From the NCBI GenBank assembly GCA_021818025.1, contig JAKAFH010000005.1, positions 1-44,366 of the forward strand: a stretch of DNA of 44,366 nt, given 5' to 3'. This DNA comes from Actinomycetes bacterium. Lineage in GTDB: Bacteria; Actinomycetota; Acidimicrobiia; Acidimicrobiales; RAAP-2. This document shows positions 2,777 to 17,425 of this stretch, piece after piece (position 1 is the stretch's first letter; each line of letters opens with the position of its first letter). The translations under genes were made by a program, and so were the position numbers. The notes below the pieces were generated by a model that saw only the letters and a program-made list of their open reading frames with translations, did no database searches and was not told the DNA's origin.

Positions 2777-4219
2777 TCACGATACTCGCGGTACCGACCC
2801 CGTCCCGTTGGCCACCGTGGGCCGCGTCTCGAAGGGGAGCGTCGCCTCGACGACGGTGCCGACGCCGGCCGTCGAGCGTACGGTGAGCGAGCCTCCGAGC
2901 AGCCGGGCTCGCTCGCGCATGCCGACGATGCCCAGCGACGGTGACTCGCCCTCGGAGCGGATGGCCCGGCGCTGGTCGAAGCCGGTCCCGTCGTCGACGA
3001 TCGTGACGTGCAGCGCCGCCTCTTGGAACTCGACGTTCACGCGCAGGTGGTGGGCGTTGGCGTGGCGCTGCGCGTTGCGCAGCGACTCCTGGACGATCCG
3101 GAACGCGCCGAGCTCGACGTCCGACGACAGTCGCGTCGGCGAGCCCTGGACGCTGAGCTGCGTCGACTCGGACCCCTCGTCGTCGACGTCGGCGACGAGG
3201 CTCGAGAGGGCGGCGACGAGTCCCAGCTGGTCCAGGGCCGGCGGGCGCAGGTCGCGCGCGAGCGAGCGGAGCCGCGCCGCGGCGTCGAGGGCCTGGTTGC
3301 GCGTCTCGGCGAGACCGGTCGCCACCGTCTCGGGGACCCCGCCCGTGTTGCCGAGGGTCTCGAGCCGGCGCGCGAGGTGCAAGAACAGCTGCAGCGGCTC
3401 GTCGTGCAGCTCACGCGCGAGGCGACGGCGCTGGTCCTCTTCGACTTGGATCACCTGCTGGGCGAACTGGCGCGCGCGACGCTCCTCGTTGCGCTCCTCG
3501 GTGATGTCCTCGAAGGTGATCTGACGCCGCGGCGCCGACGCGTCGAGCAGGAGCGTGACGACGTCGAGTCGGTAGTCGTGGCCGCCGGCGAGCGAGAGCA
3601 CACGCCCCGACAGCGAGCCGATGTCGAGGTCCTCGTCGAGCACCGCGGCCATGGCCCGACCCACGACGGCGGCGCCCAGCAGCCCCGTCGCGGCCGGGTT
3701 CGCGTCGGTGACGACCCCGCGCTCGTCGATGACGACGATGGGCGAGCGATTCGACTCGAAGAGCCGGCGATAGCCCGCCTCGATCGCGAGCGTGCGCGCC
3801 GCGGCCTCGTCGATCCGCTGCTGGGTGAGCCGCTCGGTCTCGATGCGGCGACCGAAGATGACCGCGACCAGGATGATGATCGCGAAGTTCAACAGGTCGT
3901 CGCCGGCGTGGCCCTCGTCGTGGGGCAGCATCAGGTCGGGCAGCCAGAGGATGAGCGTCCAGATCGTGGTGGCCGCCGAGCCGGCGAGCCCGTAGCGCAG
4001 CGCCGCGTAGCCGATGGGGATGACGAGCACCGCCACGGGCACGCCCGTGGGGAGTGACGAGTTGACGAGCGACGGGTGCAGGTCGACGAAGTAGTGCACG
4101 CCGACGATGACGAGCACCGTCGCCTGGATGATCCAGAAGGGCAGGTCGGTGATCGGCGGGCGCACGATCCGCTCGATGATCGAGCGGTGCGTGAAGTCGG
4201 GGTCAGTCGAGGAGTTCAT
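2777..4219 (-). CDS. Membrane sensor histidine kinase with PAS-like domain (NarL-type partner)
   Basis: This 480-residue sensor kinase phosphorylates a response regulator, almost certainly the one encoded just upstream. About four hydrophobic segments occupy residues 27-122 with short loops, giving a membrane input domain. A PAS-like region follows at about 150-245. The HisKA_3 dimerisation domain has the phospho-acceptor His272 in RELHDEPLQ. The ATPase domain has an N box at 377-387 (QESLRNAQRHA), a DDGTGFD motif at 409-415 and a GIVGMRERA motif at 430-438. The ATG at 4219 lies inside the regulator gene (17-base overlap), implying coupled translation. The signal sensed is unknown. The divergent neighbour is a redox operon, so a redox or quinone signal is possible but only inferred. 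Confidence 0.92.
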   Translation of the reverse strand: MNSSTDPDFTHRSIIERIVRPPITDLPFWIIQATVLVIVGVHYFVDLHPSLVNSSLPTGVPVAVLVIPIGYAALRYGLAGSAATTIWTLILWLPDLMLPHDEGHAGDDLLNFAIIILVAVIFGRRIETERLTQQRIDEAAARTLAIEAGYRRLFESNRSPIVVIDERGVVTDANPAATGLLGAAVVGRAMAAVLDEDLDIGSLSGRVLSLAGGHDYRLDVVTLLLDASAPRRQITFEDITEERNEERRARQFAQQVIQVEEDQRRRLARELHDEPLQLFLHLARRLETLGNTGGVPETVATGLAETRNQALDAAARLRSLARDLRPPALDQLGLVAALSSLVADVDDEGSESTQLSVQGSPTRLSSDVELGAFRIVQESLRNAQRHANAHHLRVNVEFQEAALHVTIVDDGTGFDQRRAIRSEGESPSLGIVGMRERARLLGGSLTVRSTAGVGTVVEATLPFETRPTVANGTGSVPRVS

Positions 4220-4919
4220 TGTTGGGCGCGGTGACCAGTCGGTGGCTGATGGCGTGGGTGACCGCCTCGGTGCGCGAGGTCACCCCGAGCTTGCCGAGGA
4301 TGTTCGAGACGTACCCCTCGACGGTGCGGATCCCGAGCTCGAGCTCGGCGGCGATCTGCTTGTTCGAGCGGCCCTGGACGAGCAGCTCGAGCACGGCGGT
4401 CTCTCGCGGGGTCAGCGTGCCCACCGTCGGCGCGACGGCGTCGCGCCGACGCACGAGGCGCTTGGAGACCTGGCGGTCCAGCACGAAGACGCCGTCGTAG
4501 ACCGCGCGCACCGCGTCGATGAGTTCCTTGGTGCTCGCGGTCTTGAGCAGGTAGCCCCCGACGCCGACCTCGAGGGCCTCGGCGACGTAGGCGTACTCGT
4601 CGTAGGCCGACAGGATCAGGATGCGCACCGTCGGGCGCGTGGCGAGGATCGTGCGCGAGAGTTCGAGCCCGCTCATCGAGGGCAGGTTGACGTCCACGAG
4701 CGCGACGTCGGGTGCGTGCGCCGCGAGCTGCTCGAGCGCCTCCTCGCCCGAACCGGCCGTGGCGATGACCTCGATGGCCGGGTCCTGCTCGAGGAGCTGG
4801 CGGGTGCCCTCGCGCACCAGGGCGTGGTCGTCGACGATCAGCACGCGAATGGGATTGGACGACGACGGAACCGTCGGGTCGGGCGCGTGCGCCACCGGTT
4901 CTTCGATCTCGTCACTCAT
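4203..4919 (-). CDS. NarL/LuxR-family response regulator
   Basis: A 238-residue DNA-binding response regulator. The receiver domain begins near residue 24 with the acidic pair Asp30-Asp31, phospho-acceptor Asp76 (ALVDVNLP) and Lys126 in YLLKT. A linker follows, then a LuxR-type helix-turn-helix at about 168-220 (LTPRETAVLELL, then SNKQIAAELELGIRTVEGYV). The ATG at 4919 is chosen because an AGGAGGGGG ribosome binding site sits just upstream; the ATG 15 bases earlier lacks one. It precedes and overlaps the sensor kinase gene, so the two form a cognate pair. It reads away from the 5227 redox operon across a 307-base intergenic region. Targets are unknown. Confidence 0.93.
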   Translation of the reverse strand: MSDEIEEPVAHAPDPTVPSSSNPIRVLIVDDHALVREGTRQLLEQDPAIEVIATAGSGEEALEQLAAHAPDVALVDVNLPSMSGLELSRTILATRPTVRILILSAYDEYAYVAEALEVGVGGYLLKTASTKELIDAVRAVYDGVFVLDRQVSKRLVRRRDAVAPTVGTLTPRETAVLELLVQGRSNKQIAAELELGIRTVEGYVSNILGKLGVTSRTEAVTHAISHRLVTAPNNELLD

Positions 4920-5106
4920 GGTCCCCCTCCTCAACGATCACCCAGATCGTGTATCGGACTCCTTAAATGTGCCACAGTACGCACCGTGTTGCGCACCGTG
5001 TTTCGCGGTACTGCCGAGATGCCCGAACCGCCCAGTCAGTGACACGCCGCTACCCCACGGCGATGGCATCCCTTGTGATCAGGTTAAGGAGTAGTCATCG
5101 ACGTTA

Positions 5107-5124
5107 CAACTTTAGGTAAAGTTG
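5107..5124. promoter_or_regulatory. Perfect palindrome upstream of the redox operon promoter
   Basis: CAACTTTA (5107-5114), a GG spacer and TAAAGTTG (5117-5124) form a perfect 8+8 inverted repeat. It ends six bases before the TTGACA -35 box. Its place upstream of the -35 suits an activator site or the outer half of a repressor site. The binding protein is unknown; candidates are the Rrf2 protein at 9070-9990 and the response regulator at 4203-4919. Confidence 0.6.
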
Positions 5125-5129
5125 CTGAC

Positions 5130-5157
5130 TTGACAATACGTATGCCTGAGTGATAGT
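5130..5157 (+). promoter_or_regulatory. Promoter of the redox operon (TTGACA / GATAGT)
   Basis: A perfect -35 hexamer TTGACA (5130-5135) is followed after 16 bases by GATAGT (5152-5157), which matches four of six -10 positions. Transcription would begin near 5164, about 60 bases before the ATG at 5227. This is among the best sigma-70-type promoters visible in the window. Confidence 0.7.
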
Positions 5158-5200
5158 ACCTAAGTAGATAAGTAGTAATACGGTACTACTTAAGTACCTA
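5155..5200. promoter_or_regulatory. Operator-like repeat cluster at the redox operon start site
   Basis: TAAGTAGTA (5169-5177), six spacer bases and TACTACTTA (5184-5192) form a perfect 9+9 inverted repeat just downstream of the predicted start of transcription. TAAGTAG is also present at 5161-5167, eight bases from the copy in the left arm. AGTACCTA occurs directly repeated at 5155-5162 and 5193-5200. TACTTAAGTA (5187-5196) is itself a palindrome. This density of overlapping repeats over the start site suggests a repressor operator with more than one binding unit. Confidence 0.65.
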
Positions 5201-5226
5201 GCTACACGATTCCCAGAGGGGGCCGC

Positions 5227-6810
5227 ATGGCAGTACAGACTGATGTGACGACAGAGGAGCACGGTGGCGTGTCCTCCGGCGCGCACTTGATCGATCCCAT
5301 CGCGGTGGCGATTCGCACGCGCCACCCCGAGGAGCCGCCGAGCGGGCGCTTCAGCGAGACCGACCCCTCGAGGGGCCTGGACGTCGCGCGCCACCCACTC
5401 GTGGCCAAGATCCTGCACGACCGCAAGTTCCAGTTCCTCATGATCCTGCCCAACCAGATCATCTTCTGGCTCGTGATTGGGATCGGCCTGCTCGGCACCG
5501 TGGTGCCGGGCCTCAACTTCGCGACTGCGATCACGTGGTACCTGTGGTTCTGCCTGGTCTTCGTGATGATGGTCGTGGTGGGGCGCGCGTGGTGCGCGAT
5601 GTGCCCCTTCGGCGGCTTTGGCGAGTGGGTCCAGCGCCACGCTTTCTGGGCCCGCAAGGGCAAGAGCATCGGCCTCGGACTCAAGATGCCCGAGCGCGTC
5701 GCCCAGTACGGCTTCCTGCTCTCGGTCGGCGCCTTCTTGTTGCTCACGTGGATCGAGGAGTTCTTCAACATCGCCGGCCCGGGCAACCCGGCCTCGACGA
5801 GCTACATGGTGCTCGGCATCGTCTCGAGTGCGTTGCTCTTCTTCCTCGTCTTCGAGCGGCGCACCTTCTGTCGCTACGTGTGCCCGCTCACCGCGCTGAT
5901 CGGCACCGTTGGCACGATGGGCTCGGTCGCGGGCTTTCGCACGCGTGACCGTGAGGTCTGCCAGTCGTGCCAGACCAAGGACTGCATGCGCGGTGACGCC
6001 GATGGCTACGGCTGCCCGTGGTACACCTGGCCGGGCAGCTCGGACTCGAACTCGGCCTGCGGCCTGTGCACCGAGTGCTACAAGGCCTGCCCGAGCGACA
6101 ACATCGGCCTCTTCGTCCAAAAGCCGCTCACCTCGGTCGTCGCGCCGTCGCGCCGTCGCGCCGACGTCGCGTGGTCGATCGCGCTGCTCTTCGGCCTGGT
6201 GCTCTACCAGCAGCTGAACGCGCTGACGACCTTCGCCAACGTCGACACCTGGCTGAACAACCACACGTTCTTCCCGCACTACCCCGACCCGATCAGCTAC
6301 CTCGGGATCATCGTGGGCGTCGCGGTGGCCCTGGCGGGCGTCGCGTGGGTCTTCAAGGCCGCCTTCGCCCGGGCCGACTACACGCCCGCGGTGAGCGGTC
6401 GCGCGTTCTCGGACCGCACGAGCACCTTCCGGGCCTACTTCTTGCCGCTGATGTACGGGATCATCCCGATCGTGGGCGCGGACTACTTCGCCCGCCAGCT
6501 GCCCAAGTTCTTCCAGCACCTGCCGCGCGTGCCGGTCGCGATCGGCCACCTGTTCGGCTTCGGCTCGACGAGCTCCTCGCTCTACAACGCCTCGCTCATC
6601 TCCTCCAACGCCGGCATCATCGCCGTACAGGTCGGCGTGATCGCCGCCGGCACGCTGGCGTCGATGTGGACGAGCTGGCGCATCGCCGGACGCGACCTCG
6701 CACCCGTCGGGGGCAACAAGCGCGTCGTCCAGATCAGCGCGGCCACGCTCGCGCTCGCCATCGGCGTCTTGGTCGCCGTGCTGTACGTCCTCATGAACGC
6801 CGCGGACTAG
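5227..6810 (+). CDS. NosR/NapH-like membrane 4Fe-4S protein
   Basis: This 527-residue polytopic membrane protein has about seven to nine hydrophobic segments. The Cys-Pro motifs resemble the NosR/NapH/CcoG group: C123-x2-C126-P after a membrane segment (GRAWCAMCPFGG) and C215-x3-C219-P (FCRYVCPLT). A soluble insert follows with Cys245, 248, 253 and 263, then a classical C278-x2-C281-x2-C284-x3-C288-P ferredoxin motif, enough for about two 4Fe-4S clusters. More membrane segments occupy 315-380, 403-420 and 455-523. Proteins of this type pass electrons between the membrane quinone pool and soluble or periplasmic redox partners. The ATG at 5227 follows an AGAGGGGG ribosome site. The next gene starts nine bases after its stop, and both likely form one electron-transfer unit. 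The precise donor and acceptor are unknown. N-terminal residues 1-55 look soluble and unassigned. Confidence 0.85.
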   Translation: MAVQTDVTTEEHGGVSSGAHLIDPIAVAIRTRHPEEPPSGRFSETDPSRGLDVARHPLVAKILHDRKFQFLMILPNQIIFWLVIGIGLLGTVVPGLNFATAITWYLWFCLVFVMMVVVGRAWCAMCPFGGFGEWVQRHAFWARKGKSIGLGLKMPERVAQYGFLLSVGAFLLLTWIEEFFNIAGPGNPASTSYMVLGIVSSALLFFLVFERRTFCRYVCPLTALIGTVGTMGSVAGFRTRDREVCQSCQTKDCMRGDADGYGCPWYTWPGSSDSNSACGLCTECYKACPSDNIGLFVQKPLTSVVAPSRRRADVAWSIALLFGLVLYQQLNALTTFANVDTWLNNHTFFPHYPDPISYLGIIVGVAVALAGVAWVFKAAFARADYTPAVSGRAFSDRTSTFRAYFLPLMYGIIPIVGADYFARQLPKFFQHLPRVPVAIGHLFGFGSTSSSLYNASLISSNAGIIAVQVGVIAAGTLASMWTSWRIAGRDLAPVGGNKRVVQISAATLALAIGVLVAVLYVLMNAAD

Positions 6811-6819
6811 GGAGACACG

Positions 6820-9021
6820 ATGACTGCCACCATTTCCACCACTGAGACCCGGGCCGAGCGCCACGTCACGGTCCTCGTCGACCGCTGCGCGGGCTGCCAG
6901 GAGTGCGTCATCCGCTGCCCGGCCGGCGCGCTCTCGATGGAGCCCGTCACTTGGACCGCGATCGCGAATGACGCGCTGTGCGTCGGCTGTCGCCAGTGCG
7001 AGCGCACGTGCCCGTTCTCGGCGATCACCGTCGACGGCCCGCTCGCGGTCACCGAGCGCTACGACCCGCCGATCCACCAGCCCGTCGAGCTGCGCAACAA
7101 CGTCGAGGAGACCCGGCGGGGCTACGACACCTGGGAGGAGGCGATCGCCGAGGCGAACCGCTGCCTCTCGTGCCCCGACCCCACCTGCATGCGGGGCTGC
7201 CCGGCGCACAACGACATCCCCCAGTTCGTGGCCGCGGTGCGCGACCGCGACCTCGAGCGCGCCCACACGATCCTGCGGCGCACGACGGTGATCCCCGACA
7301 TCTGCTCGCGGGTCTGCAACCAGGCCGCCCAGTGCGAGGGCGCCTGCACGTGGTCCCTCGCCGGCGGGGTGCCCGTCGCGATCGGTCGCCTCGAGCGCTT
7401 CATCGCCGACCACGCCTTGGTGCCCGCGCCGGCCGTCACGGCCAACGAGGACCCGCTGTCGGTTGGGATCATCGGCTCGGGCCCGGCGGGCATCGGAGCC
7501 GCCTGGGACCTGATCGAGGCCGGCGCGTCGGTGACCGTGTACGAGAAGGACGACACCGCCGGCGGGCTCCCGATCTGGGGCATGCCCGACTTCACGCTGC
7601 CCGACGACGTCGCGACGCGCCCCTGGCGCCAGCTCGTCGACGCGGGCGTGGACCTGCGGCTCAGCACCCCGATCCCGGCCGAGTCGATCGACCAGTTGCT
7701 GACGGTCCATGACGCGGTCGTCGTCGCCCACGGCGCGGGCGTGCCGATCCGGCTCCCGGTGCCCGGCGCGGACCTCGAGGGCGTCGTGGACGCCACGTCG
7801 TTCCTCAAGGGAGCCAAGGCCGCGATGATGCCGGGCGGCGACCCCGCGGGCCTGCGCGCCGAGCTCGGCGTCGGTGAGCAGCGCGGGGCGCGGGTGCTCG
7901 TGCTCGGCGCGGGCAACACCGCGATGGACGTGGCGCGCATGGCGCGGCGCCTCGGCCTCGAGGCGACCTGCGTGGACTGGCTCGACGAGCGCTTCGCGCT
8001 CGCGCGGCCCGACGAGCTCGCCGAGGCGCGTCACGAGGGCGTCGACGTGCGCTTCCTGCGCACGCTCACCGCGCTCGAGGGCGACGGTCGCGTGGCGCGG
8101 GCCCAGCTCGCCCACACGGTCCAGCCCGAGCGCGCCAAGCAGCCCACCGTGCTCAAGACCGTGCCCGACGTGCTCGACGTGGACCTCGTGGTGATGGCGA
8201 TGGGCTACCGGCTCGACGCGACCTTCCACGAGGCCCTGCCGAGCCTGCCGATCAAGAAGCGCCACGTGGGCATGCCCCACGGCCGCTGGAGCGCCTCGGG
8301 GATCCTGAAGAACCCCGCGTCGGCCTACAACCACCACAACCCCGTGGGCTCGCTCGCCCTGGACCGCGAGGTCGGGCTCTGGGCAGCGACCCTGCCCCAG
8401 CGCGAGCGCGTGTGGGTGGCCGGTGACGCGCTGACGGGCCCGGCGACCGTGGTCGAGGCGATGGCCCAGGGCCGTCGCGCGGCGCGATCGATCCTCGACG
8501 CGCACCCCGCGCGCCCGGACCGCTCCTCGGCGTTCCGCACCGACCACGAGCCGCGCATCCTCGTCGCCTACGCGTCCGCCGGGGGCACCACCGCGGCGCT
8601 CAGCCAGGTGATCGCCGACAACCTCGGTGTCGCGGGGGCGCGCGTCAGCGTGCTGCCCGTGGGCCAGGTCGGCGCGAAGGAGATCGCCGCCGCCGACGCG
8701 CTCGTACTCGGGACCTGGGTCGAGGGACTCGTCGTCGCCAAGGTCCGCCCGGCCAAGGCCATGCGCGACTGGCTGGCGTCGGCGCCCAACCTCGGCGCCA
8801 AGCCCGTCGCGACGTTCTGCACCTTCGGGGTCAACCCGCGCGGGGCGAGCGACGAGCTGGCCGAGCTGGTGCGCGCCGCGGGCGCCACGGTGGTGACCTC
8901 GGAGGTCTTCGGGCCGCGCGACCGGGGCGAGGGGGCCCGGCTGCACCCGACCAAGCCCGAGGCCTTCGCCAACCGCATCGCGGCGCGGGTGATCGCGCGG
9001 GTCGCCGCGGTCGTCGCCTGA
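6820..9021 (+). CDS. Ferredoxin / GltD-like flavoprotein / flavodoxin-like fusion oxidoreductase
   Basis: A 733-residue soluble redox protein with three modules. Residues 15-75 are a two-cluster ferredoxin: C23-x2-C26-x2-C29-x3-C33P and C54-x2-C57-x2-C60-x3-C64P. Residues 95-560 are a GltD/NfnB-like NAD(P)H flavoprotein. This part has its own cysteine groups (Cys115, 118, 123, 127 and Cys162, 166, 172, 176), an FAD-binding GSGPAG at 219-224, a second dinucleotide fold at VLGAGNTAMDVAR (361-373) and a final WVAGDALTGPATVVEAM FAD motif (532-548). Residues 578-733 resemble a flavodoxin (ILVAYASAGGTTAAL at its start), probably binding FMN. It follows the membrane Fe-S protein by nine bases. A likely job is electron transfer between NAD(P)H, ferredoxin-type carriers and the membrane partner. 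Direction, physiological role and any flavin-based bifurcation are inference. Confidence 0.85.
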   Translation: MTATISTTETRAERHVTVLVDRCAGCQECVIRCPAGALSMEPVTWTAIANDALCVGCRQCERTCPFSAITVDGPLAVTERYDPPIHQPVELRNNVEETRRGYDTWEEAIAEANRCLSCPDPTCMRGCPAHNDIPQFVAAVRDRDLERAHTILRRTTVIPDICSRVCNQAAQCEGACTWSLAGGVPVAIGRLERFIADHALVPAPAVTANEDPLSVGIIGSGPAGIGAAWDLIEAGASVTVYEKDDTAGGLPIWGMPDFTLPDDVATRPWRQLVDAGVDLRLSTPIPAESIDQLLTVHDAVVVAHGAGVPIRLPVPGADLEGVVDATSFLKGAKAAMMPGGDPAGLRAELGVGEQRGARVLVLGAGNTAMDVARMARRLGLEATCVDWLDERFALARPDELAEARHEGVDVRFLRTLTALEGDGRVARAQLAHTVQPERAKQPTVLKTVPDVLDVDLVVMAMGYRLDATFHEALPSLPIKKRHVGMPHGRWSASGILKNPASAYNHHNPVGSLALDREVGLWAATLPQRERVWVAGDALTGPATVVEAMAQGRRAARSILDAHPARPDRSSAFRTDHEPRILVAYASAGGTTAALSQVIADNLGVAGARVSVLPVGQVGAKEIAAADALVLGTWVEGLVVAKVRPAKAMRDWLASAPNLGAKPVATFCTFGVNPRGASDELAELVRAAGATVVTSEVFGPRDRGEGARLHPTKPEAFANRIAARVIARVAAVVA

Positions 9022-9028
9022 TCGAATC

Positions 9029-9053
9029 GGGGCCCGTCAACCGGACGGGCCCC
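9029..9053. terminator. Hairpin between convergent redox operon and Rrf2 gene
   Basis: GGGGCCCGTC (9029-9038) and GACGGGCCCC (9044-9053) form a perfect 10-base stem with a five-base loop in the 48 bases between the two stop codons. No T-run follows on either side, so it may be a bidirectional terminator of the GC-rich, U-poor kind. Confidence 0.65.
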
Positions 9054-9069
9054 GCGACGACCGTCTCGG

Positions 9070-9990
9070 TCAGTCGCTCTCGAGGGCGCGCGCGAGTCGG
9101 CGCAGGAACGAACGCACCGTCGATCGCGCGAGGCGCACCATCACCGCGTCGTCCAGGGCGTGCCCGGCCCGCCCGAGCGGCGGCCGGTAGCGCCCCACGA
9201 TCGTGAGCTCGCTGCGTTCGGGATCGAGCTCGGCGACCTGCAGGGTGCCCACGAGTCGCGGAAAGAGCCCCGAGGGTCCGGTCGCCTCCCAGCGCAGGGC
9301 GATAGCCACGCCCTCGGCGGTCTCGACGGGTTCACCGAGTCGCACGGCGACGGTCTTGGCGAGCCAGCCCGACGAGCCGGGGCCGACGCGCACGAGGATC
9401 GCCTCGGCGTCGTCGCGCGCGGCGTCGAGGTGGGGGATGAGCCAGGCGCCACCGCCGGTCATGCGCTCAGTGATGCGCGCGACCGGTCGCTCGACGTGCA
9501 CGGTGTCGCTCACCTCGACGGTGTCGACGGCGCTGTGGCGGTGCCCGACCACGTGGTACTCGCCAGCCGTGATCGCGCGATCGCGCTCGAGCAGGGTCGC
9601 CAGGGTCGTCGAGGCCAGCTCGGCTCGCATGGCCGCCGTGGCGGCGCTCCAGGTCTCGTGCACCGGGCAGACCGAGTCCCACTGGCAGGGGTCGTCGCCG
9701 AGCACGCAGCTGTCGGACTCGAGGGGCCCCTCGCCAGCCTCGACGATCTCGAGCAGGGTGATCTCCGAGGGCGGCCGGGTCAGCCGGTAGCCGCCGTTGG
9801 CCCCGAAGAAGGACGTGGCGATCCCGGCCTGGACCAGGTCACCGAGGATCTGGGAGACGAACGTGCGCGGCACGCCCATCTCGACCGAGACCTGGCGCAG
9901 CTTGGTCGGCGCGGGCGCGTTGAAACCGCTGGCCAGGCACAGCGCCGAGCGCACGACGTAGTCGCCTCGCTTAGAGAGTTTCAACTTCAT
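9070..9990 (-). CDS. Rrf2-family Fe-S transcription regulator fused to an SRPBCC-like domain
   Basis: A 306-residue protein, about twice the usual Rrf2 length. Residues 1-145 are a typical Rrf2 winged-helix regulator: MKLKLSKRGDYVVRSALCLA start, the wing near GANGGYRL (64-70), then a cluster-ligand loop with Cys95, Cys102 and Cys108 (C-x6-C-x5-C) and His111, as in IscR/NsrR-type proteins. Residues 155-306 look like an SRPBCC/START-type ligand-binding domain. Seen features are alternating strands, the AILVRVGPGSSGWLAKTVAVRLG stretch in the middle and a long C-terminal amphipathic helix; this assignment is by pattern only. The protein could combine Fe-S, NO or redox sensing with binding of a hydrophobic small molecule. 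It converges on the redox operon and may control the palindromes at 5107-5192. No ribosome site precedes the ATG. Confidence 0.82.
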   Translation of the reverse strand: MKLKLSKRGDYVVRSALCLASGFNAPAPTKLRQVSVEMGVPRTFVSQILGDLVQAGIATSFFGANGGYRLTRPPSEITLLEIVEAGEGPLESDSCVLGDDPCQWDSVCPVHETWSAATAAMRAELASTTLATLLERDRAITAGEYHVVGHRHSAVDTVEVSDTVHVERPVARITERMTGGGAWLIPHLDAARDDAEAILVRVGPGSSGWLAKTVAVRLGEPVETAEGVAIALRWEATGPSGLFPRLVGTLQVAELDPERSELTIVGRYRPPLGRAGHALDDAVMVRLARSTVRSFLRRLARALESD

Positions 9991-10053
9991 TGGGCAAGGT
10001 TACCGGCGCACCTGACGTAGGGCGCGGGACCACACGACTGACTGAGAAGGGGT

Positions 10054-10401: not shown

Positions 10402-11745
10402 ATGAGCGAGATTCTTGACGCAGTTCGCGCGGGAGCCGACGCGGCGGCCCTCGCCGCGACGCCGCTGCCCACCATGACCCGGGCGGTCTTCGTGCGCCGC
10501 GACGAACAAGAGATGTTCGACGGCATGGCCTCGCGCGACAAGGACCCGCGGGCGAGCCTGCACGTCGACGAGGTCCCCCTGCCCGAGTACGCGCCCGACG
10601 AGGTGGTCATCGTGGTCATGGCCTCGTCGATCAACTTCAACACGGTCTGGACGAGCATCTTCGAGCCGCTGTCGACCTTCGGCTTCCTCGACCGGCTCGG
10701 CAAGACGTCCTACTGGGGCGCGCGTCACGCCCTCGACTACCACGTCATCGGCTCGGACGCCTCGGGCGTGATCGTGCGCGTGGGCTCGGCGGTGCGCAAC
10801 TGGAAGGTCGGCGACGAGGTGACGGTGCACTGCAACTACGTCGACGACCAGGACCCCACGAGCCACGACGACTCGATGCTCGGTGCCAACCAGCGCATCT
10901 GGGGCTTCGAGACGAACTTCGGCGGCCTCGCCGACCTCTCGATCGTCAAGGCCAACCAGCTCATGCCCAAGCCGACCCACCTCACGTGGGAAGAGGCCGC
11001 GGTCAACGCGCTCACCAACTCGACCGCCTATCGCATGCTGGTGTCGCGCAACGGCGCGCCGGTGACCCAGGGCGACCGGGTGCTGATCTGGGGTGCCTCG
11101 GGCGGCATCGGCTCCTTCGCGGTCCAGCACGTGCTCAACTCCGGCGGCACCCCCATCGGGGTCGTCTCGAGCGCGGCCAAGGCCGCGACCTTGCGCGAGC
11201 TCGGCTGTGAGTACGTGATCAACCGCGCCGAGAAGGACTACCGGTTCTGGAAGGACGAGCACACCCAGGACGAGTCCGAGTGGCGGCGCCTGGGCAAGGA
11301 CATCCGCGCGCTGGTGGGCGAGGACCCCGACATCGTCTTCGAGCACCCCGGTCGGTCCACCATGGGCGCGAGCGTCTTTGTCGCCAAGCGCGGCGGGACC
11401 ATCGTGACCTGCGCGGCGACGACGGGCTACATGGTCGAGTACGACAACCGCCACCTGTGGATGCGCCTCAAGACGATCAAGGGCTCGCACTTCGCCAACT
11501 ACCGCGAGGCCTGGGACGCGAACCAGACGATCGTCGACGGCAAGGTCGTGCCGCCGCTCTCGGCGGTCTTTCCCCTCGAGCGCGCGGGCGAGGCGACCTT
11601 CGAGATGCACCACAACCGCCACGAGGGCAAGGTGGGGATCCTGTGCGCGGCCACCCGCGAGGGCCTCGGGGTGAGCAACCCCGAGCTGCGCGCCGCGGTG
11701 GGCGAGAAGCGGCTCTCGATCTTCCGACGACACGACCAGGAGTAG
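10402..11745 (+). CDS. ccr: Crotonyl-CoA carboxylase/reductase
   Basis: Key enzyme of the ethylmalonyl-CoA pathway: it reductively carboxylates crotonyl-CoA with CO2 and NADPH to ethylmalonyl-CoA. The 447-residue product matches the family length and is of the medium-chain dehydrogenase/reductase type. Residues equivalent to the known CO2-binding set are present: Asn80 (SSINFNTVW), Phe169-Glu170 (IWGFETNFGG) and His363 (KGSHFANYRE). The nucleotide-binding motif WGASGGIGSFA is at 230-240. The epimerase gene follows after two bases. Alternative roles are provision of ethylmalonyl-CoA for secondary metabolism, but the adjacent pathway genes favour acetyl-CoA assimilation. Confidence 0.97.
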   Translation: MSEILDAVRAGADAAALAATPLPTMTRAVFVRRDEQEMFDGMASRDKDPRASLHVDEVPLPEYAPDEVVIVVMASSINFNTVWTSIFEPLSTFGFLDRLGKTSYWGARHALDYHVIGSDASGVIVRVGSAVRNWKVGDEVTVHCNYVDDQDPTSHDDSMLGANQRIWGFETNFGGLADLSIVKANQLMPKPTHLTWEEAAVNALTNSTAYRMLVSRNGAPVTQGDRVLIWGASGGIGSFAVQHVLNSGGTPIGVVSSAAKAATLRELGCEYVINRAEKDYRFWKDEHTQDESEWRRLGKDIRALVGEDPDIVFEHPGRSTMGASVFVAKRGGTIVTCAATTGYMVEYDNRHLWMRLKTIKGSHFANYREAWDANQTIVDGKVVPPLSAVFPLERAGEATFEMHHNRHEGKVGILCAATREGLGVSNPELRAAVGEKRLSIFRRHDQE

Positions 11746-11747
11746 CC

Positions 11748-12167
11748 ATGGCATCGATGCTGACCGAGATAGACCACGTCGCGATCGCCGTCACCGACCT
11801 CGATGCGGCGATCGCCTGGTACGAGTCGACCTTCGGTGCGACCGTGGTGCACCGCGAGGTCGTCGAGTCTGACGGCGTCGCCGAGGCGCTGATCCAGGTC
11901 GCCGACAGCTACGTCCAGCTCCTCACCCCCACGCGCGAGGACTCGCCGGTGGCCAAGTTCCTCGCCAAGCGCGGCGAGGGCCTGCACCACGTGGGTTATC
12001 GCGTGCGCGACTGCGCGGCGGCCCTGGAGGCCGTACGCGCGGCCGGCGGACGCGTGATCGACGCCGCGCCGCGTCCCGGCTCGCGCGGCACCACGGTCGC
12101 CTTCGTGCACCCGAGCGCCGCCTTCGGGACCCTCGTCGAGCTGGTCGAGGACGGCGACGGCCACTGA
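11748..12167 (+). CDS. epi: Ethylmalonyl-CoA/methylmalonyl-CoA epimerase
   Basis: A 139-residue glyoxalase/VOC-fold metalloenzyme that interconverts the epimers of ethylmalonyl- and methylmalonyl-CoA so that the mutases can use them. Expected metal ligands are visible: His10 (IDHVAIAV), a His in GLHHVGYRV (about residue 79) and Glu near the C-terminus in TLVELVE. The ATG at 11748 follows an AGGAG site inside the end of ccr, with two bases between the ccr stop and this start, so the pair is an operon. A hairpin at 12183-12215 lies downstream. The length and motifs fit the family closely. Confidence 0.94.
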
Positions 12168-12182
12168 AAACGCGTCTCGCCG

Positions 12183-12215
12183 ACCCACCCCCGCGCCGAC
12201 CCGCGCGGGGTGGGT
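12183..12215. terminator. Hairpin ending the ccr-epi transcript
   Basis: ACCCACCCC (12183-12191) pairs with GGGGTGGGT (12207-12215), and three more G-C pairs form after a one-base bulge (12193-12195 with 12204-12206). No T-run follows. The last T is also the first base of the TAGCCT hexamer before pccB, so terminator and promoter abut. Confidence 0.55.
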
Positions 12216-12220
12216 AGCCT
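12215..12220 (+). promoter_or_regulatory. Putative -10 (TAGCCT) of the carboxylase operon
   Basis: TAGCCT ends eight bases before the ATG at 12229 and there is no ribosome binding site, so the mRNA would have almost no leader. The ATG at 12241 would leave a 20-base leader and is the alternative start. Confidence 0.5.
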
Positions 12221-12228
12221 TGCCAGCT

Positions 12229-13781
<1,553 letters not shown>

Positions 13782-13785
<4 letters not shown>

Positions 13786-13970
13786 GCCACGGCCTCGCCC
13801 CGCGACCGGGTCCGACTCCGGCCGAGCTCGCCGCGGTCAGCGCCGCGGTCGCGCTGCTGTCGGGCTCCGCGGTCGCCGCTGCGCCCGAGCGGGCGCCGGC
13901 CTGGCGCTTCTCGGGTCGGTGGTTCAACGCGGGCCGCTACGCCAACCGGCGCCCGATCGTTAACCACTGA
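13782..13970 (+). CDS. Acyl-CoA carboxylase epsilon subunit
   Basis: A 62-residue protein recognisable as the small epsilon subunit that stabilises actinobacterial acyl-CoA carboxylases. It carries the family-like [16 protein letters not shown] helix near the N-terminus, an Ala/Pro linker and a tryptophan near the middle, followed by SGRW. The GTG start at 13782 overlaps the pccB TGA, so translation is coupled. The 3' end overlaps the convergent ecm gene by 11 bases. The short length makes detection by similarity weak; the position directly after the beta subunit is strong support. Confidence 0.83.
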
Positions 13971-15933
13971 CCGACGTCGCCTCCACCATGGCGAGCAGGT
14001 CGCTCATGATCGCCTCGAGCGAGAAGTCCTTGGGCGTGTAGACGGCGGCCACGCCCGCCTCGCGCAGGCGCTGGGCGTCGGCCTCGGGCACGATACCCCC
14101 GACGACGACCGGCACCGAGACCCCGGCCGCCGCGAGCCCGTCGAGGATCCGCGGCACGAGCGCGAGGTGCGAGCCCGAGAGCAGTGAGACGCCCACGAGG
14201 TCGACGTCCTCGTCGCGCGCCACGGCGACGATCTCCTCGGGGCTGAGCCGAATGCCTTGGTAGACGACCTCGAAGCCGGCGTCGCGCGCGGCGACCGCGA
14301 TCTGCTCGGCCCCGTTGGAGTGGCCGTCGAGGCCGGGCTTGGCGACGAGCAGCTTGGGCGGCGCGCCGCGGCGCTCGGCGAGGGCCTTGGAGCGCGTTAC
14401 CAGTGCGGCGAAGCTGGTGGCGCGCCGGCCGACGCCCGCGCGCACGCCCGTGGGGGCGCGGTACTCGCCGAAGACCCCGCGCAGGCAGCCGGCCCATTCG
14501 CCGGTCGTGCCGCCGGCGCGCGCGAGGGCCATCGAGGGCGCCATCACGTTGTCGGCGGGGTCGGCACTGGTGACCACCCGTGCCAGCTCGGCGAGCGCCG
14601 CGGCGACCGCGGCCTCGTCGCGGTTCGCGCGCCAGGCCGCGAGGTCCTCGACGAGTTGGCGCTCGACGTCGGGGTCCACGGTGAGGATCGCCGCGTCCAG
14701 GTCGGCGGTGAGCGGCGAGGGGGCGGTCTCGGTGAACCGGTTGACCCCGACGACGACCTGCTCGCCGGACTCGATGCGCGCGACTCGTTCGGCCTGGCTC
14801 GCCACGAGGCGCGCCTTCAGCTCGTCGACGGCGGCGAAGGCGCCGCCGAGGGCGAGCACGTCGTCGAGCTCGGCGCGCGCGGCGAGGGTGAGCTCGCGGA
14901 CCTTCGCGTCCATGACGATCGAGCCCGCGAAGAGGTCGGGGTACTCGAGCAGGTCGCTCTCGAAGGCGAGGACCTGTTGGAGGCGCAGGCTCCACTGCTG
15001 GTCCCACGGTCGGGGCAGCCCGAGCGCCTCGTTCCAGGCGGGCAGCTGCACCGCGCGAGCGCGCGCGTCGCCCGAGAGGGTGACCCCGAGCATCTCGAGC
15101 ACGATGCGCGCGACGTTGTTCTCCGGCTGCTGCTCGGTGAGCCCGAGTGAGTTCACCTGCACGCCGTAGCGGAAGCGCCGCTTGGCGGGGTCCTGCACGC
15201 CGTAGCGGGTGCGGCAGATCTCATCCCACATCGCGGTGAAAGTTCGCAGCTTGGCGATCTCCTCGACGAAGCGCACGCCGGCGTTCACGAAGAACGAGAT
15301 GCGCCCGACGACGCTCGCCATCGCCGACGGGTCGACCTTGCCCGACTCGGCGACCGCGTCGAGCACGTCGATCGCGGTCGCGAGCGCGTAGGCGATCTCC
15401 TGGACCGGGGTCGCCCCGGCCTCTTGGAGGTGGTAGCTGCACACGTTGATCGGGTTCCACTTGGGCACGTGGGTCTCGGCGAAGGCGATCATGTCGACGA
15501 TGAGCCGTCGCGACGGTTCGGGGGCGAAGATGTAGGTGCCCCGGCTCAGGTACTCCTTGACGATGTCGTTCTGGGTCGTGCCCGCGAGGCGCGCGAGGTC
15601 GGCGCCCTGCTCCTCGGCGAGCACGAGGTAGAGCGACCAGAGCCACGCGGCGGTGGCGTTGATCGTCATCGAGGTGTTCATCTCGTCTAGCGACAGCCCG
15701 TCGAAGAGCTGGCGGACGTGCCCGAGGTGCGCGACCGGCACGCCGACCTTGCCGACCTCGCCCGCGGCGTTCGGGTCGTCGGGGTCATAGCCCGTCTGGG
15801 TCGGCAGGTCGAAGGCGATCGAGAGGCCGGTCTGGCCCTTGGCGAGGTTGGCGCGGAAGAGCTCGTTCGAGGCCCGGGCCGTCGAGTGGCCCGAGTACGT
15901 GCGCATCACCCAGGGCTTGGCTCGCTCGGTCAT
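13960..15933 (-). CDS. ecm: Ethylmalonyl-CoA mutase (coenzyme B12-dependent)
   Basis: A 657-residue mutase that rearranges (2R)-ethylmalonyl-CoA to methylsuccinyl-CoA using adenosylcobalamin. The N-terminal TIM-barrel begins [18 protein letters not shown] and continues [12 protein letters not shown]. These Ecm/MeaA-type signatures differ from the GFST and RGYDSD forms of methylmalonyl-CoA mutase. Further hallmarks are [16 protein letters not shown] and [18 protein letters not shown]. The C-terminal B12 domain has Asp536-x-His538-x-x-Gly ([10 protein letters not shown]), then LSGSH and the VVVGGI strand. The ATG at 15933 overlaps the TGA of the upstream dehydrogenase in an ATGA, so the two are translationally coupled. 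Substrate assignment is strong because ccr is close by. Confidence 0.93.
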
Positions 15934-16787
15934 CGGCGCGGGTAGTCGTAGAAGCCGCGGCCGGTCTTGCGGCCGAGCCGGCCCGCGGTGACCATGCGGC
16001 GCAGCGTCGGCACGGGGGCGAAGTTCGGATCGGCGAACTCGGTGTACAGCGCCTCGAGGATCGCGAGTGAGGTGTCCAGGCCCACGAGGTCGAGCAGCGC
16101 GAAGGGTCCCATCGGGAAGCCGCAGCCGCCCTTCATCGCCACGTCGATCCCCTCCATGCTCGCCACGCCCTGCTCGAGGAGCCGCACGGCGTTGTTGAGG
16201 TAGGGGAAGAGCAGCGCGTTGACGACGAAGCCGGCCTGGTCCTTCACGATCACGGCGTCCTTGCCGCATCGGGTGACGAAGTCGACGACGTAGTCGATGG
16301 TCTCGTCGCTCGCCGAGAGCGGGCGCACGATCTCCACGAGCGACATGAGCGGCGCGGGGTTGAAGAAGTGCACGCCGCAGACGCGCTCGGGCCGCGAGGT
16401 CTCCATCGCGAGGTCGATGACTGACAGGGTCGAGGTGTTGGTCGCGAGGATCGCGTCGGGTCGCACCACGTGGTCGAGCTCGTTGAACAGGACGCGCTTG
16501 ACGTCCATGTCCTCGACGACCGACTCGATCACCAGCTCGCAGTCGGCGAGCTCGGCGAGGTCGGTCGTGACCGAGACCCGCGCGTGCAGGGCGGCCGCGT
16601 CGGTGGCGTCGCGCGTGCCGCGCTCGACCTGGCGGGCCAGTGAGCGGTCCAGTCCCACGAGCAGCGCGTCGGCGCTGGCCTGGTTCCGACTCCGTACGAT
16701 GACCCGCGCGCCCGTCGCGGCGACCACCTCGGCGATGCCGCTGCCCATGATGCCTGACCCCAAGACGCCAATGGTTCGCAAGTTCAT
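15930..16787 (-). CDS. 3-hydroxyacyl-CoA (3-hydroxybutyryl-CoA) dehydrogenase
   Basis: A 285-residue member of the 3-hydroxyacyl-CoA dehydrogenase family interconverting acetoacetyl-CoA and (S)-3-hydroxybutyryl-CoA. The Rossmann motif GSGIMGSG is at 10-17. Catalytic residues are Ser119 (NTSTLS), His140 (GVHFFNPAP) and the later [12 protein letters not shown] segment. The C-terminal dimer domain ends [14 protein letters not shown]. At the end of the second strand the sequence is VIVRSRN rather than an acidic residue, which suggests NADP(H) preference. It is the first gene of an operon with ecm. The ATG at 16787 is six bases after TACGAT on the minus strand. Confidence 0.92.
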
Positions 16788-16793
16788 TACTGG

Positions 16794-16799
16794 ATCGTA
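16794..16799 (-). promoter_or_regulatory. Putative -10 (TACGAT) for leaderless dehydrogenase-ecm transcript
   Basis: On the minus strand TACGAT ends six bases before the ATG at 16787. There is no ribosome site. The identical TACGAT-N6-ATG arrangement occurs before the YajQ gene. Confidence 0.55.
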
Positions 16800-16831
16800 G
16801 TTCGGGGTCGCCCAAATGCGAGACTCGGATC

Positions 16832-17425
16832 GTGGCCACCCTCGTCGCTGGATCGCTCCGTGCGCTGCTCGGGGCCTCGCGCGAGCAGTTCGTCGGCGCG
16901 TCGGTCATCGTCGTGCCGACGGCCGCCGCCTTCCGCGGCGCGGCGGCGGCGGCGATCGAGGTGGCCGCCGCCCTCGAGGAGACTGGCGCGAGCGTCGAGG
17001 CGCTGATGGTGCTCGACCGAGCCGGCGCCAACGACCGCGCCATGGCCAAGCGGGTCGCGGGCGCTGACCTCGTGGTGCTCGCCGACGGGGCGGCGTTGCA
17101 CGCGCTGTCCGTGTGGCGCGACAGCGCCCTCGGCGCGGCGCTGGCCCCGGCGCACCTGGTCGCGATCGGCTCGGTGGCGACGGTGCTCGGCGCGGTGATG
17201 ATCGACCCGCGCGGCGGCGCCCCGACCATCGGGCTCGGCTACCGGAGCGGGGCCGTGCTCACGACCCCCGCGACTGCCGAACAGCTCGAGCGCACCCGCC
17301 GCCTGCTCACGGGCGACGAGCCGCTGGTGGTCGTCGGACCGCGAGGCGTCGTCGCCGAGTCAGACGGGGACTGGCGCGTGGTCGTGTCCGAGGACGTCGA
17401 GGTGACCCCGGCGCGACCTCGGTGA
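16832..17425 (+). CDS. Peptidase S51 / cyanophycinase-like protein, possibly inactive
   Basis: A 197-residue protein with a class I glutamine-amidotransferase-like fold pattern. It opens with a strand ending in VVPTAAAFRG and has VVLADGAALHALSVWRDSALG. The run MIDPRGGAPTIGLGY looks like cyanophycinase (S51) relatives. In active members the nucleophile lies in a small-residue elbow (SAGA) before this last motif. Here the stretch is AIGSVATVLG, where the serine seems shifted and the glycine spacing is lost, so catalysis is doubtful. The GTG start follows GAGACT by six bases and is divergent from the dehydrogenase-ecm operon. Its stop abuts that of the convergent cyclophilin with no gap. Function is unknown. 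Confidence 0.5.
   Translation: MATLVAGSLRALLGASREQFVGASVIVVPTAAAFRGAAAAAIEVAAALEETGASVEALMVLDRAGANDRAMAKRVAGADLVVLADGAALHALSVWRDSALGAALAPAHLVAIGSVATVLGAVMIDPRGGAPTIGLGYRSGAVLTTPATAEQLERTRRLLTGDEPLVVVGPRGVVAESDGDWRVVVSEDVEVTPARPR

Follow-up and report, generated by a model that had tools for sequence, protein, structure and literature searches.

A conserved pair of an Fe-S membrane protein and a ferredoxin-flavoprotein-flavodoxin fusion in Acidimicrobiales: a candidate NADH:quinone oxidoreductase with an Rrf2-family regulator

The window analysed here, a stretch of 44,366 nucleotides of contig JAKAFH010000005.1 (GenBank assembly GCA_021818025.1) from an actinobacterium of the order Acidimicrobiales, contains three genes that a sequence-only reading had described as a redox module: a polytopic iron-sulfur (Fe-S) membrane protein (gene A), a fusion protein (gene B) and an Rrf2-family regulator (gene R). 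All three were found at the positions given by that reading, A and B being separated by the nine bases it had reported (6811-6819) and R being convergent with them. A kinase/response regulator pair (HK/RR), divergent from A, was absent from that account. The features of the locus are the following:

2780-4219, minus strand: HK, membrane sensor histidine kinase (Pfam PAS, HisKA_3 and HATPase_c; about four hydrophobic stretches)
4206-4934, minus strand: RR, response regulator with a LuxR/GerE DNA-binding domain (Pfam)
5107-5124, no strand assigned: inverted repeat CAACTTTA-2-TAAAGTTG, 8+8, 5' of A (repeat search)
5114-5134, plus strand: predicted R operator, motif AAGTNTAGNNNNNNACTTGAC with two mismatches, overlapping a TTGACA -35-like box at 5130-5135
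5156-5205, no strand assigned: 22-nucleotide (nt) imperfect inverted repeat (82%) near the presumed transcription start, containing GTAGTNNTACGG at 5172-5183
5227-6810, plus strand: A, polytopic Fe-S membrane protein of 527 amino acids (aa), NapH/NosR-like (Pfam Fer4_5, model, 12 conserved Cys)
6820-9021, plus strand: B, fusion protein of 733 aa (Pfam, AlphaFold2 model, structure alignment, conserved Cys)
9070-9990, minus strand: R, Rrf2-family regulator of 306 aa with an SRPBCC-like C-terminal domain (Pfam; D10 and C95/C102/C108)
9996-10016, plus strand: predicted autoregulatory site just 5' of the R start codon, three mismatches to the AAGTNTAGNNNNNNACTTGAC motif

Conservation and distribution of the A-B pair

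The search for relatives gave 77 loci, from the best 80 of 83 matches, and 20 further stretches from sampled genomes were added; four duplicates and locus L082, whose B is split over two frames of a metagenome-assembled genome (MAG) contig by a frameshift or an assembly error, were removed before counting. The gene pair is kept together in the relatives examined, with A directly 5' of B and on the same strand in all 76 non-duplicate loci having at least 900 nt of upstream sequence; these loci are mutually related, and in some cases two or more stem from a single MAG, so that they do not count as independent events. Measured between profile ends, the A-B gap ranges from 11 to 211 nt (median 26.5, 78 loci). 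Forty-eight non-duplicate loci have flanks of over 5 kb on the upstream side and over 2.5 kb on the downstream side (wide loci), and the co-occurrence with an Rrf2 gene, which the sequence-only reading had singled out for checking, is seen in most of them: an R-type regulator is present in 37 and a kinase in 37, the two occurring together in 29 and both being absent from three (L063, L075 and L123). The location of R varies among loci: it may follow B in convergent orientation, precede A in divergent orientation or lie at another nearby position. Two A-B copies occur on separate contigs of one MAG in the pairs L044/L049, L045/L054, L030/L031 and L043/L059, and such copies with different nearby regulators suggest specialised paralogues.

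The record titles of the 77 loci are nearly all of Acidimicrobiaceae, Acidimicrobiales or uncultured Actinomycetes/Actinobacteria MAGs, the exceptions being three Acidobacteria and one Mycobacteriaceae. A sample of the class gave A in 20/296 genomes at 1e-10, of which 16 are strong matches from the same order and four are weak (30-32% identity), with no B in the neighbourhoods fetched for the weak ones. In a sample of the phylum, A was detected in 10/296 genomes, six of them outside the order; five of these six are weak matches (29-37%), again with no B in the fetched neighbourhoods. The sixth, a draft genome of another class (G481, locus L116), has a strong A match (50%) and, alongside it, a B without flavodoxin domain; because the draft is only 84% complete, transfer and mis-binning are both possible for this pair. 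When B was searched against 296 sampled genomes of the phylum (E 1e-60, three candidates scored per genome) no full-length match was found outside the order, the match of G481 covering residues 11-468 and the remaining ones the NfnB/GltD core, and no place covering 80% of B was found in the plasmid collection. Apart from the one draft genome, the strong matches fall within one order of mostly uncultured bacteria, and within the window's genus A is present in 4 of 14 listed genomes.

Domain composition and conserved residues of A and B

Alignments were made from near-full-length representatives and hold 51 of 55 A proteins (A1), 47 of 48 B proteins (A2), 32 of 36 R proteins (A3) and 25 of 27 HK proteins (A4); B proteins lacking the flavodoxin domain therefore lie outside A2, and five weak A homologues (26-31% identity) without B alongside were kept in A1. 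A fifth alignment (A5) holds 33 of 48, its last row (L126) being misaligned owing to a longer tail.

The description of B as a two-cluster ferredoxin joined to a GltD/NfnB-like flavoprotein and a flavodoxin-like domain is borne out by Pfam and profile searches. Pfam recognised a dicluster ferredoxin, Fer4_20, Pyr_redox_2 and a weak Flavodoxin_1 (2.6e-4, under the cut-off), and the domains were assigned as a 2[4Fe-4S] ferredoxin at about residues 12-75, Fer4_20 at 93-199, a flavin adenine dinucleotide (FAD)/NAD(H) region of NfnB/GltD type at about 210-565 and a flavodoxin at about 579-730. Flavodoxin_1 is detected at 1e-3 in 35/47 full-length B proteins and a profile of the C-terminal domain matches clostridial flavodoxin (5e-11); judged by sequence, this domain is a member of the flavodoxin family and may bind flavin mononucleotide (FMN). 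It is present in 77/82 non-duplicate B proteins and missing from those of L063, L077, L116, L123 and L125.

The AlphaFold2 model of B (47 sequences) has a mean predicted local distance difference test score (pLDDT) of 84. Its core aligns best with P. furiosus NfnI, Xfn and T. maritima NfnB (Z 37-38), with root-mean-square deviations of 2.3-2.5 Å over 431-436 residues and 34-36% identity, while glutamate synthase small chains rank lower (Z 33-34). All 16 Fe-S Cys of B and E192 are invariant in the 47 full-length proteins, and four [4Fe-4S] clusters are therefore expected. Both [4Fe-4S] motifs of NfnB (RCx2Cx4Cx3CP... and ...Cx3C...GxxER, as given in an excerpt of PMC6405883) are present in B, with their eight Cys and E192 in 47/47 sequences.

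Two other positions set B apart from Nfn. In T. maritima NfnB, N5 of the bifurcating flavin is hydrogen-bonded by Arg187, which the same excerpt describes as a residue shared by all Nfn and as important for bifurcation (PMC6405883). Its place is occupied by T259 in 47/47 full-length B proteins, as mapped by pairwise alignment within a well conserved stretch (GIPEFRLP vs GMPDFTLP). This flavin position is Arg in 5/5 NfnB/GltD-core relatives read from the phylum (L150-L154, core relatives that are not assigned to Nfn) and Lys in the GltD-type protein of the window's own genome (L002); among the flavodoxin-less B proteins it is Thr in L063 and L077 and Ser in L116 and L125, L123 being unread by the pattern. 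The second position is the NADPH site, where D386-W387 of B (47/47, in the context Val/Ile-Asp-Trp) stands in place of the Tyr-Arg-Arg of Nfn, a triplet that we equate, by our own mapping, with the two NADP+ phosphate-holding Arg described in the excerpt of PMC6405883; L077 and L125 have Glu-Trp here. Nfn-type bifurcation is disfavoured because the N5 Arg is Thr and Asp-Trp replaces the NADPH-site Arg pair, which points to B as a linear, NAD(H)-linked flavoprotein. As to the electron exchange with NAD(P)H proposed earlier, a cytosolic Fe-S/flavin protein meeting a membrane Fe-S protein is still the natural reading, whereas the loss of the Arg pair makes us lean towards NAD(H).

B shares with NfnB the core fold and domain order, both cluster motifs with their Glu and the FAD and NAD(P) Rossmann halves, and differs from it, besides the two replacements, in the additional ferredoxin and flavodoxin domains and in having the membrane partner A; no NfnA was found among the Pfam-named window genes or in B, the genome itself not having been searched for it. 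AegA and YgfT, which we take to have an N-terminal Fe-S domain followed by a GltD-like flavoprotein, are joined in the same way and match B (NF009408 and NF009451), although B falls far below their NCBIfam cut-offs (204 of 1003 and 183 of 1154 bits), and to our knowledge they have neither a flavodoxin domain nor an A-like partner. The cut-offs for glutamate synthase chains are also missed (gltA 252 of 472 bits, gltD_gamma 236 of 483 bits). We found no characterised protein with the three-domain architecture of B in Pfam, NCBIfam, the PDB or the opening lines of abstracts returned by literature searches, in agreement with the novelty proposed earlier, and no paper on the A-B module among titles and opening lines of abstracts. 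As far as these searches reach, A-B appears to be made of known domains in a new architecture and pairing.

The assignment of A as a polytopic, NapH/NosR-like Fe-S membrane protein was likewise borne out, with Fer4_5 detected by Pfam at 6.5e-12. The model of A (pLDDT 82) has eight or nine long hydrophobic helices, the one at 413-431 being doubtful, since its mean hydropathy is only 0.11 and it may not cross the membrane. The helix-edge residues C123, C126, C215 and C219 are present in 51/51 sequences and the eight Cys of the ferredoxin-like domain each in 49-51 of the 51, so that 11 of the 12 motif Cys occur in at least 50/51 sequences and C248 in 49/51. Eleven of these Cys are loop residues and C123 marks the end of a helix, all on the same side of the membrane according to our own reading of the helix ends in the model, which used no topology program. 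This side is predicted to be cytosolic because its loops carry 29 of the 30 loop Lys/Arg, and the conserved Cys face of A is thus probably cytosolic. The predicted outer loops contain no Cys and no outer redox domain was recognised by Pfam or by the analysis of conserved Cys. As the outer side shows neither a redox group nor a Cys, the likeliest partner of A would be a quinone in the membrane, by analogy with NapH/NosR proteins.

A resembles the NapH/NosR polyferredoxins in its Fer4_5 helix-edge Cys motifs, CxxCP and CxxxCP, which we take to be the defining ones of that type, and in its ferredoxin-like Cys on the predicted cytosolic side. It differs from them in falling far under the NapH cut-off of NCBIfam (TIGR02163, 1.5e-6, 27.9 of 213 bits), in several additional C-terminal helices and in giving no match to an FMN domain of NosR type.

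The regulator R, the promoter motifs and the kinase pair

Pfam identified R as an Rrf2 protein (3e-28) with a C-terminal Polyketide_cyc2 match just under the cut-off (6e-6, 27.0 vs 27.4 bits), and this SRPBCC-like domain is recognised at 0.01 in 11/32 aligned regulators. The Fe-S ligands attributed to R in the sequence-only reading are conserved, D10 in 32/32 sequences and the three Cys in 31, 30 and 30 of 32. They correspond by sequence comparison to the three Cys and one Asp given as cluster ligands for S. coelicolor NsrR in excerpts of PMC5411485 (see also the excerpted PMC9338935), D10 being equated by us with NsrR Asp8 from its position near the N-terminus. R shares the Rrf2 domain, the three Cys and the Asp near the N-terminus with NsrR, RsrR and IscR, and differs in its C-terminal domain and in missing the NCBIfam cut-offs of NsrR (43.5 vs 182 bits) and IscR. 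A literature search on the two terms returned no paper on an Rrf2-SRPBCC fusion among titles and beginnings of abstracts.

The operator-like repeats noticed earlier upstream of A (5107-5124 and 5156-5205) are partly conserved, parts of them being kept at fixed spacing in relatives. The AAGTNTAGNNNNNNACTTGAC motif, with up to three mismatches over its 14 fixed positions, occurs in 32/43 A upstream regions and overlaps the -35-like TTGAC; its right half reads ACTTGACG in 19/43 and ACTTGACA in 12/43, where 0.05 is expected for each from resampled sequence. The motif is common to the promoters of A and R, the site in front of R in the window having been missed before. It lies 5-6 nt 5' of the R start, with up to two mismatches, in L030, L031, L034, L060, L065 and L072, where R does not adjoin A, and 23 of 71 R-like entries have it with up to two mismatches within 6 nt of the start, many of them sharing an intergenic region with A. 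The motif in divergent R-A pairs could partly reflect two overlapping promoters, but the six R-only promoters, which carry it as well, speak against this as the whole explanation. Weighing against the shared motif, R-like genes 3' of B mostly lack it: 21 plus-strand R-like entries scoring 165-226, mostly 3' of B, show 4-8 mismatches, and L014, L015, L066 and L037 show 6-7.

Scanning of six genomes for the motif with up to three mismatches gave background levels, with 14 sites in the window's genome (G000) against 19 for a reversed-pattern control and site numbers of the same order as the controls in the other five. The site at 9996-10016 is one of those 14 in a genome of 2.06 Mb. With the scan at background, no wider regulon can be claimed; among the matches listed only the two sites of the locus appear to stand out, by position and conservation and not by rarity.

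The element GTAGTNNTACGG, with up to one mismatch, is present in 19/43 A upstream regions, in 10 of these 42-43 nt 3' of the TTGAC box, and could be a site of the response regulator. HK residues H42, D46, D95, H104 and D108 are invariant in the 25 aligned kinases, and a hydropathy scan would place them on the outer face. Because of these five invariant His/Asp on the presumed outer face, an extracytoplasmic metal or proton/pH signal is suggested for HK.

Proposed function and its alternatives

A total of 36 related genomes was compared, 16 with A and 20 without, the latter being the first-listed misses of the same genus, family and order and not a random sample. A NuoH-type subunit, the one complex I subunit scored, was found in 36/36 genomes with and without A, which rules out A-B as a replacement for complex I. 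RuBisCO was found in 4/16 genomes with A, all four in one family, and in 1/20 without it, and is absent from the window's own genome; A-B is therefore not tied to Calvin-cycle autotrophy, and a Calvin-cycle link was rejected with RuBisCO in only 5/36 genomes. Nitrogenase gave no match over the cut-off in any of the 36 genomes and three weak ones below it, and a role of A-B in electron supply to this enzyme was discarded. A ketoacid:ferredoxin oxidoreductase of the POR family is present in 13/16 genomes with A and 14/20 without it (4/4 and 5/10, respectively, within the window's genus), and since it does not track the pair over the 36 genomes this link was also dropped. Directly after B, 10 loci (L030, L031, L034, L039, L041, L047, L049, L054, L065 and L067) have a gene of the F420H2-dependent quinone reductase type (PF04075; one member named by Pfam), which is a mild hint of quinone chemistry.

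We favour, tentatively and with a little less than even confidence, a reading of A-B as a membrane-bound Fe-S/flavin NADH:(mena)quinone oxidoreductase with linear electron flow, of a composition that we did not find described. NADH would reduce the FAD in the NfnB/GltD-like core of B, and electrons would pass singly through the two Fer4_20 clusters and then the two N-terminal ferredoxin clusters of B, enter A through its cytosol-facing Fe-S domain and finally reach a quinone close to the helix-edge Cys of A. The flavodoxin of B may serve as a side branch or as a one-/two-electron buffer, being missing in a few lineages. R would act as an Fe-S Rrf2 repressor of two promoters, that of A-B and that of its own gene, both of which would open once the cluster of R is lost or oxidised, and the divergent HK/RR pair may add a second, probably extracytoplasmic, signal. 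The earlier interpretation, in which a flavin/Fe-S protein of the cytosol and an Fe-S protein of the membrane exchange electrons under Rrf2 control, is partly supported and seems right in outline.

Several points weigh against this NADH:quinone reading. With a NuoH-type subunit in all 36 genomes, another NADH:quinone route is not indispensable, and the flavodoxin, although kept in most B proteins, lacks an obvious function if the path is purely linear. The preference of B for NAD over NADP is guessed from two residues. On the side of A, a Foldseek search against the PDB gave no usable match (best E 0.8), the quinone site is placed by likeness to NapH/NosR proteins, and the N-terminal segment has an excess of acidic residues (6 Lys/Arg, 10 Asp/Glu), which lends no support to the predicted topology. 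The tree distances of A and B correlate with r 0.84 (67 loci) and those of HK and B with 0.88 (45 loci); because the first is no higher than the second, common ancestry accounts for it as much as specific pairing does. Finally, about seven Fe-S clusters in one enzyme would be odd for a stress response.

This last point also bears on a nitrosative or oxidative stress module, an unlikely alternative in which destruction of the R cluster by nitric oxide (NO) or O2 would derepress the pair, and the flavodoxin and A would detoxify NO, repair metal centres or keep the quinone pool reduced. It agrees with the NsrR-like set of three Cys and Asp in R (PMC5411485, excerpts), with the promoter motif common to R and A and with the F420H2-dependent quinone reductase-type neighbour. 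R, however, lies well under the NsrR cut-off and has an additional domain, no NO reductase or flavohaemoglobin was found among the ten Pfam-named window genes, and an enzyme so heavily dependent on Fe-S would itself be sensitive to NO and O2.

NapH/NosR-type proteins operate on the quinol side, and the flow could accordingly be reversed, menaquinol passing electrons through A and B to a cytosolic acceptor by way of ferredoxin or flavodoxin, or to NAD+ with energy input, in the manner of the uphill flow in iron-oxidising acidophiles. We consider this quite unlikely, since RuBisCO is restricted to one family among the A-bearing genomes and lacking in the window's own, and complex I, with its NuoH-type subunit everywhere, could serve the same end.

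The production of low-potential electrons had been offered as another role of the module. It would require the FAD of B to bifurcate, one electron reaching menaquinone through A and the other the flavodoxin or a soluble ferredoxin, which would make the module, with its NfnB core, a functional counterpart of FixABCX/EtfABCX. The NfnB-like core, the combination of a candidate quinone-side membrane protein with ferredoxin and flavodoxin, and the energetics, which are permissive as for EtfABCX in the excerpted PMC10734219, are compatible with this, and the distribution of POR within the window's genus is a weak hint in the same direction. The parts list is comparable to that of FixABCX/EtfABCX (NADH flavoenzyme, Fe-S path, quinone), although the proteins are unrelated and no ETF family is among those listed for A (at 0.1) or B (at 1e-3). 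Thr in place of the N5 Arg in every full-length B protein and the lack of over-cut-off nitrogenase weaken the claim, as do the failure of POR to track the pair over the 36 genomes and the loss of flavodoxin from five of 82 B proteins. Quinone-linked bifurcation is thus improbable, Nfn-like production of low-potential electrons by A-B being unlikely in view of the replaced residues. It would be a long shot that A-B represents a third, evolutionarily independent quinone-linked bifurcating complex, in which an NfnB-type protein has exchanged NfnA and the N5 Arg for a NapH-like quinone reductase, a flavodoxin and a flavin site bearing a hydroxyl group, and supplies an actinobacterial order with low-potential electrons from NADH.

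A respiratory function like that of NosR/NapH, with B as cytosolic electron source for an outer acceptor (N2O, nitrate or Fe(III)), is very improbable: the weak match of A to NapH speaks for it, but the conserved Cys of A all face one side, predicted to be cytosolic, no outer redox domain was recognised, and no terminal reductase was found among the Pfam-named neighbours (ten window proteins and ten neighbours), other recurring neighbours being unnamed by Pfam.

Should A-B prove to be an NADH:quinone oxidoreductase, this mostly uncultured actinobacterial order would possess, in addition to complex I, a regulated NADH-to-quinone system of its own, and genes that we expect to be annotated only as 4Fe-4S protein and FAD-dependent oxidoreductase would acquire both a function and a regulator. 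With Thr invariably standing where Nfn has Arg, B also provides a natural test of the part played by that Arg in electron bifurcation.

Other genes recur near the pair or lie beside it in the window. In L038, L043, L056, L059, L075 and L098 a recurring set was seen near A-B, consisting of a small ferredoxin, a 158-aa protein and a protein with a weak, below-cut-off match to the ribonucleotide reductase small chain, although the set is not complete in every locus. In the window, the region at 10402-17229 beside the module includes a gene of the zinc-binding dehydrogenase family (Pfam), which presumably resembles crotonyl-CoA carboxylase/reductase, and a probable carboxylase subunit gene lies nearby at 12220-13785. 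A B12-dependent mutase near the module (Pfam) has about 430 additional N-terminal residues; in several relatives the mutase frame is much shorter (655 aa), which makes a wrong start or a fused domain possible in the window.

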